32,215 nucleotides of DNA from Alphaproteobacteria bacterium (GTDB lineage Bacteria > Pseudomonadota > Alphaproteobacteria > UBA9219 > RGZA01): the NCBI GenBank assembly GCA_010031785.1, contig RGZA01000009.1, positions 1 through 32,215 of the forward strand. The letters run 5' to 3'. The position numbers were made by a program, and so were the translations under genes. A model generated the notes under the pieces. That model did no database searches. It worked only from the letters and a program-made list of their open reading frames with translations, and was not told the DNA's origin. Of the stretch, positions 9,129 through 30,270 are shown one piece after another. The number at the start of each line of letters is the position of its first letter. Position 1 is the first letter of the stretch.

Positions 9129-9952
9129 TGCCCTTTGAACTGAAGGATGTTCGAGCTCTTGCGCAGCTAGCGCGCGAGGCAGGGCAGATCATCCTTCATT
9201 ATCGCGAGCAACATCGCGAAGGGCGCACGCTCGGCCTTGAAGCCCTGAATCTTGAAATTAAGCACGATGGCTCACCGGTCACGCTCGCTGATATCGCATC
9301 ACAAGAACATATCCTTGAAGGTATTGAGCAGCTCGGCCTTTATCAGCCTGTGGTGGCCGAAGAAGCAACTGCGCCTGATGTTTCTACGCTCGATGGTTTT
9401 TATCTGATCGATCCGCTAGATGGCACCAAGGCCTTTGTTGATGGCGGGGATGATTTCACCGTCAATATCGGCTTCATCCATCATGGTCGCCCGGTGATGG
9501 GCGTGCTGCACAGTCCGGTTCTAAATGAAACCTATTATACCGATGGTACGTGCGCTTATTACCTCAGCCCATCGGGTGAAGAAAGCGTGATTGAAGCACG
9601 TCGCGCTGATCCAGAAGGTGTGGATGTGATCACTAACCGCACCGAAGATTGGTCAGGGCATCTTAAAAATTATCTTGCGCAGCATAAGGTTCGCTCAACT
9701 GAACGTCTTTCCAGTGCGTTCAAACTAGGCCTTGTCGCACATGGCAAATTTGATCTTTATCCACGTTTTGGCCCTACATCCGAATGGGATATTGCCGCAG
9801 GCGATGCCATTTTGCGCGCCGCAGGCGGCAGCGTGAAAACATTGGATGGGAATGACCTTGCCTATGGTAAGCCGCGCTTTCTGAACCCAGCCTTTATCGC
9901 ACGTGGTCTCACTTCTTCCTCTCCCCTTGAGGGAGAGGTTGCAACAACTTAG
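9128..9952 (+). CDS. cysQ: 3'(2'),5'-bisphosphate nucleotidase CysQ (inositol monophosphatase family)
   Basis: Motifs 'VVAEEAT' and 'YLIDPLDGTKAFVDGGDDFTVNIGFI'; start overlaps the upstream stop (TAATG). Last residues SSPLEGEVATT are encoded by repeat copy 1. Confidence 0.88.
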   Translation: MPFELKDVRALAQLAREAGQIILHYREQHREGRTLGLEALNLEIKHDGSPVTLADIASQEHILEGIEQLGLYQPVVAEEATAPDVSTLDGFYLIDPLDGTKAFVDGGDDFTVNIGFIHHGRPVMGVLHSPVLNETYYTDGTCAYYLSPSGEESVIEARRADPEGVDVITNRTEDWSGHLKNYLAQHKVRSTERLSSAFKLGLVAHGKFDLYPRFGPTSEWDIAAGDAILRAAGGSVKTLDGNDLAYGKPRFLNPAFIARGLTSSSPLEGEVATT

Positions 9953-10090
9953 GCTTAGCTTTAGCTAAGTCTTAGTTGTTGCTGGTGAGGGGTTGTTCTA
10001 TCAAACAAAAGTGCAACCCCTCACCAAGAAAAACCAAGCACTTAATAAATTAAGTGCAGGTTTTTCTATCCTCTCCCTCAAGGGGAGAGG
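9918..10090. repeat. Multi-hairpin element MH, copy 1
   Basis: CCTCTCCCCTTGAGGGAGAGG ... CCTCTCCCTCAAGGGGAGAGG ends, with internal stems gcaacaact/agttgttgc, ggtgaggggttg/caacccctcacc and agaaaaacc/ggtttttct. Confidence 0.9.
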
Positions 10091-10110
10091 ATAAACGGAG
10101 AGTGTATTTC

Positions 10111-10998
10111 TTAATCCTGCTTTGCAGGACAATAAAACGTCGATCGCCCACCTTGCGTGATGCGCTGCACTTTCTTTTGTTTGCAATCACAGTCTTTGCA
10201 CGCTTTTCCCGCCCGGCCATAGACCGCAAATTCATGCTGAAAATAACCGAGCTCACCATCCGCCTGCACATAATCGCGTAAAGACGATCCACCCTTGGCA
10301 ATCGCGCGTTTTAAAATGGTTTTAATCGCACTGACCAATGCTTTGCATTCAGCCATGCTCAAGGTGTTTGCTGCGCGCTCTGGGTGAATACCAGCTGCAA
10401 ACAATGCTTCGCACGCATAGATATTGCCCACACCAACCACCACACGCTGGTCCATAATGGCCAGTTTTACTGCTATTTTTTTACTTTTTAATTTGGCAAA
10501 TAATGCTTCGCCCGTAAAAGCTGCATCCAGCGGTTCAGGCCCCAAATGCTTAAGCAATTTATGCTGCTGTGCGTTGGCCGTTGCCACAATATCCATCATG
10601 CCAAAGCGGCGTGGATCATTGAACTTAATCTGAATTTTTTGCTCAAACGCCGCAGGGCTTCGCTCGCATAAGCTCGCGGGTCGGCGGTCGCCGCCCTTAG
10701 CTACATGAAAGATCACATGATCATGTTTTTGAAGATCGGACGTTCCATCATCAATCACCATACGCCCCGACATGCCCAGATGTACAATCAGGCTTTGCTC
10801 ATGTTTGAAGTGGATCAGGATATATTTTGCGCGGCGCGATAGGCCAATGATGATCTCCCCGCAAAGCACATCCGCCATATTTTTTGGCAGCGGGAAACGC
10901 AAATCCTTGCGCCGTTGCTCAATGCTGACAAAGCGGTTATCAACCAGCACAGCCGATAGGCCGCGCATTACGGTTTCAACTTCAGGAAGTTCGGGCAT
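10111..10998 (-). CDS. mutM: Formamidopyrimidine-DNA glycosylase
   Basis: N-term MPELPEVETVMRGL, FNDPRRFGMMD, VGVGNIYACEALFAAGIHP, C-terminal zinc finger CxxC...TFYCPAKQ (Cys pattern partly atypical). Confidence 0.95.
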   Translation of the reverse strand: MPELPEVETVMRGLSAVLVDNRFVSIEQRRKDLRFPLPKNMADVLCGEIIIGLSRRAKYILIHFKHEQSLIVHLGMSGRMVIDDGTSDLQKHDHVIFHVAKGGDRRPASLCERSPAAFEQKIQIKFNDPRRFGMMDIVATANAQQHKLLKHLGPEPLDAAFTGEALFAKLKSKKIAVKLAIMDQRVVVGVGNIYACEALFAAGIHPERAANTLSMAECKALVSAIKTILKRAIAKGGSSLRDYVQADGELGYFQHEFAVYGRAGKACKDCDCKQKKVQRITQGGRSTFYCPAKQD

Positions 10999-12301: not shown

Positions 12302-12322
12302 CGTTTGCTATTGGGTATTAAA

Positions 12323-12395
12323 AGGCCCAAGGCCCAAGGAATGAGGTTCAAGGCAGGCTTCTTGTCTAACACCTAAAACCCCGGGCCTAACACCT
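12323..12395. repeat. Stuttered-word element SW-1 upstream of ffh
   Basis: ggcccaaggcccaagg ... cttgtctaacacctaaaaccccgggcctaacacc; 20-nt exact reverse-complement match to SW-2 (13785-13804). Confidence 0.7.
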
Positions 12396-12406
12396 GATTG
12401 GATAAA

Positions 12407-13771
12407 ATGTTTGAGAATTTAACGAACAAACTCTCCACGATTTTCGACCGCTTACGCGGGCGCGGTGCATTGACCGAAGCTGATGTCGATGCCGCATGCC
12501 GTGAAATCCGCATCGCTCTGCTCGAAGCTGACGTTGCGCTGCAAGTTGCCAAAGATTTTATTGCCAAGGTACGCGTGCGCGCCATTGGCCATGAAGTCAT
12601 CGCATCCGTTACGCCCGGCCAGCAGGTTGTAAAAATTGTTCATGACGTTCTGGTGGAAACATTGGGCGCTAGCGCAACGCCGCTTAATTTTTCCCACACA
12701 CCGCCCGTTCCCATTTTGATGGTCGGCTTGCAAGGTTCGGGTAAAACCACATCATCGGGTAAGCTTGCTAAACGGTTGAAAGAAGTTGAGCGTAAAAAAG
12801 TCATGCTCGCTTCGCTCGATACGCGTCGCCCGGCTGCGCAGGAACAGCTGGCAATATTGGCTAAGCTTGCCGATGTGGGCAGCCTGCCGATTATTGCTGG
12901 CGAAACGCCCACTGCTATTACCAAGCGCGCGCTCGATATTGCTGCGCGTGAAGGCTATGACGTTATTATTCTCGATACAGCTGGCCGCACCGCGATTGAT
13001 GAAGAGCTCATGGCCGAAGTAAAAGCGGTGCGCGATATTGCGCAGCCCGCTGAAACGCTGCTCGTGGTGGATGCGATGACCGGGCAAGATGCCCTCAATG
13101 TCGCTGAAAAATTCCATGCCGCTGTCAGCATTACCGGTATTATCATGACACGCCTTGATGGCGATGCACGCGGCGGCGCTGCACTTTCCATGCGTGCAGC
13201 AACCGGCCAGCCGATCAAATTCTTTGGCTCGGGCGAAAAGCTTGATGCGTTTGAAGTCTATCATCCTGATCGTATTGCAGGCCGCATTCTTGATATGGGC
13301 GATGTTGTCAGCCTTGTTGAAAAAGCCGCTGCGGAAATGGATATGGGCGCGGCTGAAAAAATGGCCGCCAAGATGCAGAAAGGCCAGTTTGATTTTGATG
13401 ATCTGGCTGACCAACTGCGCCAGATCCGCAAAATGGGCGGTTTTTCGGGCATCATGGGCATGATGCCGGGCGTTGGCAAAATCAAGCAGGCGATGAGCGA
13501 AGCCAAAATTGATGAGCGCATCATCAAACGTCAGGAAGCGATCATTACCTCCATGACCAAGGCGGAGCGCAAAAATCCGGATCTGCTCAACGCATCACGC
13601 AAGCGCCGCATTGCCAAGGGCAGTGGCACCGATGTTGCGATGATCAATCAGTTGATCAAACAATATATGCAGATGCGTGATATGATGAAGCAGATGAAAA
13701 AAATGGGTAATAAGAATTTCATGCGTAGCATGCAGGGCGGGGGATTGGAGAATTTATTGGGTAAGAGATAG
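12407..13771 (+). CDS. ffh: Signal recognition particle protein Ffh
   Basis: MFENLTNKLSTIFDRLRGRGALTEADVD, VGLQGSGKTTSSGKLAKRL, DTAGRTAIDEELM, C-terminal M domain GGFSGIMGMMPGVGKIKQA. Confidence 0.97.
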   Translation: MFENLTNKLSTIFDRLRGRGALTEADVDAACREIRIALLEADVALQVAKDFIAKVRVRAIGHEVIASVTPGQQVVKIVHDVLVETLGASATPLNFSHTPPVPILMVGLQGSGKTTSSGKLAKRLKEVERKKVMLASLDTRRPAAQEQLAILAKLADVGSLPIIAGETPTAITKRALDIAAREGYDVIILDTAGRTAIDEELMAEVKAVRDIAQPAETLLVVDAMTGQDALNVAEKFHAAVSITGIIMTRLDGDARGGAALSMRAATGQPIKFFGSGEKLDAFEVYHPDRIAGRILDMGDVVSLVEKAAAEMDMGAAEKMAAKMQKGQFDFDDLADQLRQIRKMGGFSGIMGMMPGVGKIKQAMSEAKIDERIIKRQEAIITSMTKAERKNPDLLNASRKRRIAKGSGTDVAMINQLIKQYMQMRDMMKQMKKMGNKNFMRSMQGGGLENLLGKR

Positions 13772-13845
13772 GCCCAAGGCCCAAGGTTTTAGGTGTTAGA
13801 CAAGATGCTCTTGTCTTGGGCCTAAGACCTCGGGCCTCGGGCCTT
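13770..13845. repeat. Stuttered-word element SW-2 abutting the ffh stop
   Basis: ggcccaaggcccaaggttttaggtgttagacaaga tgc tcttgtcttgggcctaagacctcgggcctcgggcc: inverted arms with acaaga/tcttgt at the apex. Confidence 0.8.
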
Positions 13846-13898: not shown

Positions 13899-14279
13899 AT
13901 GTCAGTAAAAATCAGAATGTCACGCGGCGGCGCAAAAAAGCGTCCCTATTACTCAATCGTTGTTGTTGATGGCCGCAAGGCACGCGATGGCCGCTCCATT
14001 GAGCAAGTGGGCAACTACAACCCGATGCTTCCAAAAGACCATCCACAACGCGTTCAGCTCAATGCAGAACGCATCCAATACTGGATTTCAAAGGGCGCGC
14101 AGCCATCGCAGCGCGTTGCCATTTTCATGCACAAAGCTGGCATTGGTCCAAAGGTTGAGATCCGCAACGCACCTGTGAAGTCTGCACCAAAAGCCAAGGC
14201 GCAAGAACGCTTAAAGGCCGCAGCAGATGCAGCAGCTAAAGCTGCAGAAGCTCCTGCAGCAGAAGCAGCCACCGCTTAA
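13899..14279 (+). CDS. rpsP: 30S ribosomal protein S16
   Basis: MSVKIRMSRGGAKKRPYYSIVVVDGRKARDGRSIEQVGNYNPM; RBS aaggag upstream. Confidence 0.97.
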   Translation: MSVKIRMSRGGAKKRPYYSIVVVDGRKARDGRSIEQVGNYNPMLPKDHPQRVQLNAERIQYWISKGAQPSQRVAIFMHKAGIGPKVEIRNAPVKSAPKAKAQERLKAAADAAAKAAEAPAAEAATA

Positions 14280-14299: not shown

Positions 14300-14489
14300 C
14301 CTCTCCCCTTGAGGGAGAGGATAGAAAAACCTGTGCTTAGCTTGCTAAGCGCTTGGTTTTTCTTGGAGAGGGGTTGTGTTTGTTTTATATGTTCCTCATT
14401 TCTGCTTGTGGGTATAATAACCCCTCACCAGCAAAGACTTAGCTAAAGCTAAGCCCAAGTCTTTGCATCCTCTCCCTCAAGGGGAGAGG
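14300..14489. repeat. Multi-hairpin element MH, copy 2 (inverted relative to copy 1)
   Basis: Same terminal 21-nt palindromes; internal stems gaaaaacc/ggtttttc, ggggttgt.../...aacccctcacc and gcaaagact/agtctttgc. Confidence 0.9.
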
Positions 14490-14510
14490 ATGAGCGGAGA
14501 GTTTTTTGCG

Positions 14511-14873
14511 ATGAAACGAGCTGTGCGTCATTATGCAAAATCATTAACGGGCTTTGCCCGGAATCTGCGTCATGATCCTACACCTGCCGAGATAAAGTTA
14601 TGGTCTGTATTAAGAGAAAATAGCGCTAATACAGGCGTTAAATTCCGCAGACAGCAACCGATTGGTAAATATATTGCCGATTTTTATTGTGCAGAAATGA
14701 AGTGTGTTATTGAAATTGATGGCGCATCGCATGATTATAAAGAAAAAGAGGATGCTGTGCGCGATGTTTATATGCAAAAGCAAGGCATAACTATTTTTCG
14801 TTTTTCAGAAAATGATGTTTTGCGTGATCCTGTTGCGGTTTATCAAACGATTTTAAGCGAAGTTAAAAAATGA
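14511..14873 (+). CDS. DUF559 domain (Vsr/restriction-endonuclease-fold-like) protein
   Basis: LTGFARNLRHDPTPAEIKLWSVLRENSANTGVKFRRQQPIGKYIADFYCAEMKCVIEIDGASHDYKEKEDAVRDVYMQKQGITIFRFSENDVL. Alternative starts TTG 14463 and ATG 14490 lie in or at the end of the repeat. Confidence 0.88.
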   Translation: MKRAVRHYAKSLTGFARNLRHDPTPAEIKLWSVLRENSANTGVKFRRQQPIGKYIADFYCAEMKCVIEIDGASHDYKEKEDAVRDVYMQKQGITIFRFSENDVLRDPVAVYQTILSEVKK

Positions 14874-15481
14874 AGCCATCCAATCTTATCCTCGTTGGTC
14901 AAATTTTGGCCGCACATGGCATCAAGGGGGAGGTAAAGATTAAAAGCTTTACCCAAGATCCCTTGGGCTTGCGTGACTACAAAACTGTGCAAGATGAAAA
15001 AGGCACAGTGCACTACACATTAAAAATTCTCGACACGCACAAAAATGCGCTCATTGCCAAGGTAAAAGGAATTGCTGACCGCACAGCGGCGGAAGTCTTA
15101 GCAAAACCCAAACCAAAACTTTACGTCACGCGCGATCAGTTACCTGAAATCGAAGAAGGCCGCTATTACATTGAAGACCTCAAAGGCTTTTCAGCGATTT
15201 CTGAAAAAGGTAAGCCGCTGGCCACGCTCAAAGACATTCAAAATTTTGGTGCAGGCGATATTCTGGTGCTTGAACTGCTCGAAACTGGCAAGGAATTCAT
15301 GCTGCCGTTCAAGGAGCCCTTTGCAGGCAAGGTGGATATCAAAAAACGCACCATTGTTATTATGATTCCGCCCGGTTGGCTCGCCCAAGAAAGGCCCGAG
15401 GCCCAAGGCATCAGGCCCGAGAAGAAAAAGCCAGTCACCAAAAAAGCCGATGAAAAAAGCGATGATAATGCGGGAGAATAA
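14870..15481 (+). CDS. rimM: Ribosome maturation factor RimM
   Basis: LILVGQILAAHGIKGEVKIKSFTQDP, YYIEDLKGF, MLPFKEPFAGKVDIKKRTIVIMIPPGWL; ATGA overlap with the DUF559 stop. Confidence 0.93.
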   Translation: MKPSNLILVGQILAAHGIKGEVKIKSFTQDPLGLRDYKTVQDEKGTVHYTLKILDTHKNALIAKVKGIADRTAAEVLAKPKPKLYVTRDQLPEIEEGRYYIEDLKGFSAISEKGKPLATLKDIQNFGAGDILVLELLETGKEFMLPFKEPFAGKVDIKKRTIVIMIPPGWLAQERPEAQGIRPEKKKPVTKKADEKSDDNAGE

Positions 15482-15513
15482 TCTAAAGCCTAAGGCCTCG
15501 GGCCTCGGGCCTC
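15391..15513. repeat. Stuttered-word element SW-3 spanning the rimM/trmD junction
   Basis: Left arm aaggcccgaggcccaaggcatcaggcccgag (15391-15422), right arm cctaaggcctcgggcctcgggcctcc (15489-15513). Confidence 0.7.
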
Positions 15514-18917: not shown

Positions 18918-19316
18918 TCACGTACATTCCCGCGTAAGCGGGAATCCATCTTCTTATATGATGATAGGAAATGTCGGATAGGGTTTTTGTTTACATCATA
19001 ACGAATAAAGCGAATGGCACTCTTTATATCGGTCAGACAAATGATCTTGCTCGCAGAATGATGGAACATAAAAATGGATTATTTCAAGGATTTTCAAAAC
19101 GGTATGGCTTAAAAAAGCTTGTATATTATGAAATCTATGATAATCCAATGGAAGGTTTTGCGCGTGAGCGAGCAATGAAAAAATGGAACCGCAGTTGGAA
19201 AATACAGGCGATTATTTCAATGAACATGGTCTGGCGCGATTTAACCGATGATTTGAATAAATAATAATCTTTACCACGGTAAAGATGGATTCCCGCTTAC
19301 GCGGGAATGTACGTGA
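18918..19316. mobile_element. Candidate GIY-YIG nuclease cassette bounded by perfect 35-bp inverted repeats
   Basis: Left tcacgtacattcccgcgtaagcgggaatccatctt (18918-18952) is the exact reverse complement of right aagatggattcccgcttacgcgggaatgtacgtga (19282-19316); a GIY-YIG ORF fills the interior. Confidence 0.7.
18971..19264 (+). CDS. GIY-YIG nuclease family protein (UPF0213-like)
   Basis: FVYIITNKANGTLYIGQTNDLARRMMEHKNGLFQGFSKRYGLKKLVYYEIYDNPMEGFARERAMKKWNRSWKIQAI. Confidence 0.92.
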   Translation: MSDRVFVYIITNKANGTLYIGQTNDLARRMMEHKNGLFQGFSKRYGLKKLVYYEIYDNPMEGFARERAMKKWNRSWKIQAIISMNMVWRDLTDDLNK

Positions 19317-29964: not shown

Positions 29965-30005
29965 AAAGCTGCGTTGTGTTAATATGAAATACCCTCTCCG
30001 TTACT

Positions 30006-30184
30006 CCTCTCCCCTTGAGGGAGAGGATAGAAAATCTTGCACTTAGCGTTTAGCTAAGTGCTTAGATTTTCTTGGTGAGGGGTTATTCTCAGTAAAGCAT
30101 AACCCCTCACCAGCAAACACTAAGGCTTAGTTCGCTTTGCTCACTAAACCTAAGTGTTTGCAACCTCTCCCTCAAGGGGAGAGG
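30006..30184. repeat. Multi-hairpin element MH, copy 3
   Basis: Same 21-nt terminal palindromes; internal stems agaaaatct/agattttct, ggggttat/ataacccc and gcaaacact/agtgtttgc. Confidence 0.9.
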
Positions 30185-30270
30185 AATAGCAGCGCGCTGC
30201 TTCACGCTTATATAGCCAATTGAAAATATAGCGAAACACTGTCATCCCGGCTCAAAGCCGGAGTAAGAGA

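Follow-up and report, generated by a model that had tools for sequence, protein, structure and literature searches.

Among described systems, those closest to the locus considered here are the REP palindromes served by RAYT enzymes, the intrastrand triplex motif repeats and the homing endonucleases of the EDxHD family. DUF559, the subject of this report, is a Pfam family of unknown function that occurs across Proteobacteria and in other phyla. Nucleases of the Vsr/EDxHD type, among which its predicted fold places it, have never been described as transposases. Triplex motif repeats are known from more than 260 bacterial genomes and have been linked to genome instability, with no mobility gene found nearby (PMC4666352), and the CGTC REPs are said to have no dedicated transposase (Di Nocera et al. 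2013, PMC3733652). A search of the literature outside subscription journals and preprints found no report linking DUF559 to palindromic repeats. We consider it reasonably probable (roughly 0.6) that DUF559 is the cognate nuclease of the triplex motif repeats, which would be REP/MITE-like mobile palindromes, and that it works on them much as RAYT does on REP. The association described below offers one testable answer to the questions that surround both the repeats and the function of DUF559.

The starting point is a DUF559 gene between rpsP and rimM in an alphaproteobacterial contig; by ‘the window’ we mean the whole 32,215-nucleotide stretch that was analysed. The features concerned are as follows.

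9905..10113, no strand: repeat copy 1, without a nuclease gene (repeat families D1/D2; palindromes 9918-9938 and 10070-10090)
13899..14279, + strand: rpsP (ribosomal protein bS16), the upstream neighbour (ORF; tblastn match in the rimM loci of relatives)
14300..14320, no strand: left terminal hairpin CCTCTCCCCTTGAGGGAGAGG (exact palindrome)
14321..14382, no strand: left half, second, AT-richer hairpin (AGAAAAACCTGTGCTTAGC..GCTAAGCGCTTGGTTTTTCT), then the G-rich strand TTGGAGAGGGGTTG (sequence; arms of loci L021 and L031 arranged alike)
14408..14468, no strand: right half, AACCCCTCACC and the second hairpin in inverse orientation (sequence; inverted repeat I7)
14469..14489, no strand: right terminal hairpin CCTCTCCCTCAAGGGGAGAGG (exact palindrome)
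14511..14873, + strand: DUF559 (PF04480) nuclease gene, 120 aa from the likeliest ATG (PF04480; alignment residues; fold)
14870..15481, + strand: rimM (ORF; relatives)
29993..30202, no strand: repeat copy 3, without a nuclease gene (repeat families D1/D2; palindromes 30006-30026 and 30164-30184)

The repeat between rpsP and the nuclease gene is 190 bp long (14300-14489) and, as had been noted before, begins about 20 bp past the rpsP stop. It consists of two inverted halves, each with a terminal hairpin CCTCTCCCCTTGAGGGAGAGG, then the AT-richer second hairpin and then a G-rich strand (GGAGAGGGG or GGTGAGGGG) that faces the middle. In the genome to which the window belongs (G000; 2.18 Mb in 294 contigs) the palindrome occurs 51 times per strand with up to two mismatches, against none for a control pattern, and chance is therefore rejected as its source. 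An Rfam search gave only sub-threshold matches to animal miRNA families, which were taken as chance hits on hairpins and rejected. Nor is the palindrome a plain terminator of the nuclease gene, because arms stand on both sides of such genes and are also found without one.

The window protein matches PF04480 at 112.3 bits (E 1.3e-32; curated cut-off 20.6) and is thus a member of the family. Residues E34, D64, E75, D77 and H81 are invariant in an alignment of 23 sequences that includes the window copy, which retains the conserved acidic and histidine residues of the nuclease core. The original prediction let the reading frame begin within the right end of the repeat. The frame does open there, at TTG 14463 (MHPLPQGERMSGE...), with a further possible start at ATG 14490, but ATG 14511 is the likelier start, since GGAGAG at 14496-14501 lies 9 bp upstream of it and the alignment with the homologues L002 and L040 begins near that point. 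At the other end, the stop codon (TGA 14871-14873) overlaps the rimM start (ATG 14870-14872) as ATGA, in agreement with the earlier reading. The gene would now be co-transcribed with rimM, and possibly translationally coupled to it. Repeats of another kind, AAGGCCCAAGG / GGCCTCGGGCCT, recur at the gene junctions around ffh, rpsP, rimM and trmD (12321-12388, 13768-13845 and 15390-15512); the part at 15390-15422 falls within the C-terminal coding region of rimM.

That close relatives might preserve an empty site proved correct. The gap between rpsP and rimM is 590 bp in the window and from a few to about 17 bp in two genomes of the same genus (G001 and G002), put at about 16 bp by one of the comparisons, and these two have neither DUF559 genes nor palindrome copies, against 3 and 45, respectively, in G000. 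The insertion of DUF559 and repeat at this junction is derived. The junction is also a permissive site in the order, as other inserts have widened the gap to more than 100 bp in 7 of 21 further relatives that were scored. Several members of the order hold inserts of about 550-960 bp here, and a ParE-family gene directly adjoins rimM in G017 (L059) and G026 (L054).

Whether DUF559 genes at large are accompanied by palindromes was examined blind, by local alignment of the left 350 bp with the reverse complement of the right 350 bp, a score of at least 18 counting as flanked. The test covered 184 loci, 107 chosen by the family HMM and 77 by a peptide pattern, from Alpha-, Beta-, Gamma- and Deltaproteobacteria and also from Nitrospira, Anaerolineae and Gastranaerophilales contigs; the closer alignment A2 was used to scan the collection for DUF559, alignment A1 being too diverse, and plasmid records of the family were few (43). 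Two-sided inverted arms were found at 76 of the 107 HMM loci (71%) and 55 of the 77 pattern loci, or 71% of all 184; a flanked locus, or more than one, was present in 44 of 54 genomes. Mismatched flanks gave 9%, and there were no such repeats around neighbouring ORFs of the same contigs (0/105, maximum score 15.5) or around rimM (0/27, maximum 13). The predicted enrichment of palindromes near DUF559 is thus real. About 29% of the loci, the window copy among them, are without two-sided arms, and this counts against our reading.

The arms are inverted copies of a pyrimidine/purine hairpin together with a G-rich strand. They come in several types, among them CCCTCTCCC with GGGTGAGGG, CCCCTCCC with GGGGTGGGG and CCTTCTCCCC with GATGAGGGG, and the type covaries with the protein subfamily (over 131 loci, Mantel rho 0.273, the highest value among permutations being 0.124). 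The same holds within genomes that have at least three flanked DUF559 genes, where proteins that resemble each other tend to have arms that do so too (r 0.536, permutation p 0.002); both tests are simple ones that do not include a full phylogenetic model. Direct repeats of at least 6 bp were as frequent at the edges of the 131 elements as in shuffled sequence (0.8% in each case). As target duplications are absent, the boundaries of the elements are inferred ones, a further point against our reading. At L153, in Legionella anisa, the gene lies in a long inverted repeat (score 125) with a different outer sequence, in which a triplex-like core is nested.

It could be supposed that palindromes and small nuclease genes simply gather in intergenic gaps where insertions are tolerated, DUF559 being a hitch-hiker there, and the other inserts at the rpsP-rimM junction, ParE-type genes among them, fit such a view. 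Yet none of 29 ParE-family genes has flanking repeats, including those in such gaps, and a passive gathering would not be expected to produce arms that are inverted, two-sided and matched to the protein subfamily, or that, in 78 of the 91 cases that could be scored, have the G-rich strand between hairpin and gene, the strand order of the triplex motif. We regard this explanation as highly improbable.

A parallel case in the window bears on the same question. It comprises two features.

18918..19316, + strand: GIY-YIG unit between perfect 35-bp inverted REPs of the CGTC/dRS3 type (inverted repeat I10; leuD-leuB insertion)
18971-19264, + strand: GIY-YIG nuclease ORF, 97 aa (ORF; PF01541, 61 bits)

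The unit separates leuD from leuB, two genes that directly adjoin each other in G001 and G002. Of the stand-alone GIY-YIG loci of the order, 35 of 66 are flanked by inverted repeats, and in 29 of these 35 the arms carry the CGTC tag. GIY-YIG is therefore a candidate enzyme for the CGTC REPs. The type of palindrome is specific to the nuclease, pyrimidine-stem hairpins being found in 108 of 131 DUF559 arm pairs and in only 1 of 35 GIY-YIG pairs (p 6e-19), which again argues against a passive association.

The link extends to whole genomes. Among 150 genomes of Pseudomonadota, with a strong match taken as DUF559-positive, at least two copies of the pattern CCTCTCCC-N3-7-GGGAGAGG were present in 30 of 36 positive and 8 of 114 negative genomes (odds ratio 66, p 2e-18). 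The association persists when genomes are collapsed by genus (p 1e-12) or treated by family (p 6e-8), and on permutation within families (p 0.0002). Two genomes of one genus illustrate it: G145, with DUF559, has 141 copies of the palindrome and G149, without it, has none. The pattern covers only one type of arm, so that positive genomes with other arms, such as G126, score as negative and the bias runs against the association. Some genomes have palindromes and no detected DUF559, namely the 8 negatives just mentioned and G009, and these count against our reading; G009, a 99% complete genome, has 26 exact palindromes and no DUF559 gene that we could find, and its palindromes are either an orphan repeat family or one that has lost its enzyme. 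RAYT was considered as the mover of the palindromes and rejected, since Y1 transposases (the RAYT family) have no association with palindrome presence (odds ratio 0.69, p 0.35); DUF559 has just as strong an effect whether a genome carries Y1 or lacks it.

Something can be said about the enzyme itself. AlphaFold2, run on the DUF559 alignment, gave a model with a mean pLDDT of 84, for which the Foldseek matches include 3hrl, itself a DUF559 protein (E 3.6e-7), the homing endonuclease I-Bth0305I (3r3p_A, E 9.4e-4) and E. coli Vsr (E 6e-3). The sequence profile also reaches 3r3p, annotated as a ‘mobile intron protein’ (E 0.0012). On the predicted structure, which has the EDxHD homing endonuclease fold, DUF559 is a PD-(D/E)XK nuclease of the Vsr/EDxHD type. 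A search for defence systems with PADLOC returned weak hits only (E >= 0.001).

This relationship gives substance to two further explanations. According to one, DUF559 is a selfish gene of the homing type: the palindromes exist beforehand and are spread by something else, and the nuclease cuts gene-less hairpin pairs, whereupon gene conversion places a copy of its gene between the arms, so that the repeats are its target and not its cargo. The likeness to I-Bth0305I in both sequence and fold is in keeping with this, as are a paper that counts a DUF559 gene among the EDxHD homing family (PMC9403480) and the finding that the recombination hotspots of Legionella include DUF559 segments and GIY-YIG homing endonucleases (PMC12308824). 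Stand-alone GIY-YIG genes, from another homing family, lie likewise inside a palindrome, although a different one. According to the other explanation, DUF559 is a repair nuclease like Vsr, or a resolver of hairpins or triplexes, that protects the genome and moves no repeats, and that is kept because the genome is full of palindromes that stall replication. The Vsr-like fold would suit this, and the Caulobacter DUF559 protein VsrA has been tied to DNA damage, with a proposed role in very-short-patch repair (PMC12907096), a proposal that tells against our own reading. It has also been observed that triplex motif loci in E. coli are rearranged more than control sites (PMC4666352).

Both explanations can be set against the sites at which the element is polymorphic, for which 31 genomes of one genus, around G126, were compared. 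At the first site, the full unit of arm, DUF559 gene and arm is present in 8 species and a clean short junction in 6 (G177, G229, G217, G207, G213 and G210); most other species hold one-arm remnants, with other hairpin pairs. At the second site, G107, G214, G208 and G230 have the full element, G126 has a gene-less hairpin pair, and G217 and G211 have a single hairpin. At locus L226, in G107, the element lies at the 5' end of a glyS-like gene starting MPDLLLELRSEEIPAR, the downstream flank carrying a partial duplication of that gene start. The DUF559 copies at the first site are under purifying selection, with dN/dS of about 0.10 over ten species pairs. Within one genome, the highest identity among DUF559 copies ranges from 0.27 to 0.84; copies so divergent imply a gene that is not proliferating now and is retained like a single-copy gene, which counts against our reading.

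Gene-bearing and gene-less arm pairs alternating at one site are what a homing gene would leave. It is harder to see, on that explanation, why genomes lacking DUF559 are mostly without the palindromes altogether, or why there are nearly gap-free sites with neither gene nor palindrome; moreover, divergent copies within a genome and strong purifying selection would be unusual for a homing gene whose sites are filled. We therefore hold homing to be unlikely. Purifying selection and vertical retention of the gene sit well with a host function, but such a function gives no account of why the gene is placed between inverted copies of a repeat, subfamily by subfamily, or why its presence is patchy and varies from site to site, and we think it quite improbable. 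The placement of the gene between mirror copies, together with the presence of the repeat in gene-bearing genomes, makes DUF559 a strong candidate for spreading or maintaining these repeats.

The pairing of gene and repeat is less simple in the window itself. The window repeat matches both arms, second hairpin included, of the DUF559 elements L021 (G028) and L031 (G010), with scores of 44-48 and 40, the next best being 22 and the shuffled maximum 15.5. The window protein, on the other hand, is closest to the C62, C20 and G003 copies, of which the intact C20 and G003 carry arms of the CCCCTCCC type; C20, from the same genome as the window, and the sole DUF559 copy of G003 have the hairpin and GGGGTGGGGTTG on both sides, in inverse orientation. 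These comparisons suggest that the window gene has shed its own arms and now adjoins the repeat of another subfamily. Gene and adjacent repeat are thus not one unit, as the repeat matches the ends of L021 and L031, the kin of the gene have other arms and its own appear to be lost. Upstream of the G003 gene, which still has both of its own arms, there is also a repeat from another subfamily. The end of the window gene (GCGAAGTTAAAAAATG) resembles the rimM leader of G001 (GCGAAGGTTAAATG), and this one comparison suggests that its right end has fused to the rimM leader. The original prediction, in which repeat and nuclease form one unit within the operon and DUF559 is tied to its palindromes as RAYT is to REP, is therefore upheld as regards their insertion between rpsP and rimM and, more generally, the enrichment and empty sites, with covariation and genome association in addition, and is not supported as regards the pairing of the two in the window, where the arrangement is nested and the subfamilies differ.

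A scheme that would accommodate these observations can be outlined. The autonomous form would be a DUF559 gene between inverted repeats, with a median length of about 494 bp. The outermost part of each arm would be a pyrimidine/purine hairpin, CCCTCTCCC..GGGAGAGGG or a variant of it; a second hairpin often follows, and the part nearest the gene would be a G-rich strand (GGGTGAGGG). Stripped of the gene, the arm pair would make up the non-autonomous form, as in the 190-bp repeats of the window. The folded or triplex-forming arm is most likely what DUF559 recognises, and a nick or cut would be made beside it; host recombination may then excise the unit or copy it elsewhere, leaving no target duplication. 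The rpsP-rimM junction would have been entered by a repeat and by a DUF559 gene of another subfamily, which subsequently lost its own arms. What the analysis itself establishes is the anatomy, the enrichment, the covariation, the presence or absence of elements, the purifying selection and the fold; that the enzyme recognises its arms, cuts DNA and drives mobility is inferred, and the part played by DUF559 may be in mobility or in maintenance. The association predicts, inside one genome, which nuclease should act on which hairpin. The broader proposal, that nucleases of the Vsr/EDxHD type move hairpin/triplex repeats as a new class of bacterial mobile element, and that GIY-YIG nucleases do likewise for CGTC REPs, we put at about even odds; were it true, homing endonuclease folds would be a general class of enzyme dispersing bacterial palindromic repeats, alongside RAYT.

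The system that the DUF559 elements most resemble in arrangement is RAYT/TnpA-REP, with the REPINs (REPtrons). In both, short palindromes in inverted pairs, many per genome, flank a gene that is low in copy number, divergent and under selection; in both, target duplication is absent and the pairing of enzyme with repeat is type-specific. The enzymes differ, RAYT being a HuH Y1 transposase and DUF559 a Vsr/EDxHD-type PD-(D/E)XK nuclease, so that the flanked gene is not the Y1 transposase that defines REP/RAYT. The DUF559 palindromes are also independent of Y1 genes, and no GTAG (or GTGG) tag adjoins the foot of the window hairpins or appears in the printed DUF559 arms. The CGTC REPs (dRS3) are alike in their arrangement around a stand-alone GIY-YIG gene and differ in both palindrome and nuclease family. 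With an insertion sequence and its derived MITE pairs, the elements share the possession of common ends by full and gene-less versions; they differ in having no target duplications, no near-identical gene copies in one genome and no DDE or Y1 enzyme, and two marks of a classical transposon, target duplication and near-identical copies, are thus missing. The EDxHD homing endonucleases (I-Bth0305I, 3R3P) are akin to DUF559 in profile and fold, at the E-values given above, and the genes of both are small and either free-standing or carried by mobile sequence; DUF559 genes, however, lie outside introns and inteins and are flanked by inverted palindromes.

Finally, the intrastrand triplex motif (TMECO/PIT), CCCTCNCCC N3-6 GGGNGAGGG N3 GGGNGAGGG, corresponds to the hairpin plus G-rich strand of the DUF559 arms (PMC4666352), save that in the window arms the second hairpin stands between the two, so that the published N3 spacing does not apply there. 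One of the 23 E. coli sites, TMECO no. 9, is listed at 1,351,204-1,351,239 (PMC4666352); it falls between fabI and ycjD, the DUF559 gene of E. coli, and is no more than about 250 bp away from the latter. Of 5426 genomes, 3334 have the complete ycjD gene; in others, ATCC 25922 and an O157:H7 strain among them, a different set of genes takes its place. As the motif is on one side of ycjD only, in the form of remnants and not a clean two-sided pair, we do not treat this locus as key evidence. Holder et al. (2015) reported no mobility gene near the motif (PMC4666352), whereas in the elements described here it forms the arms around a nuclease gene.
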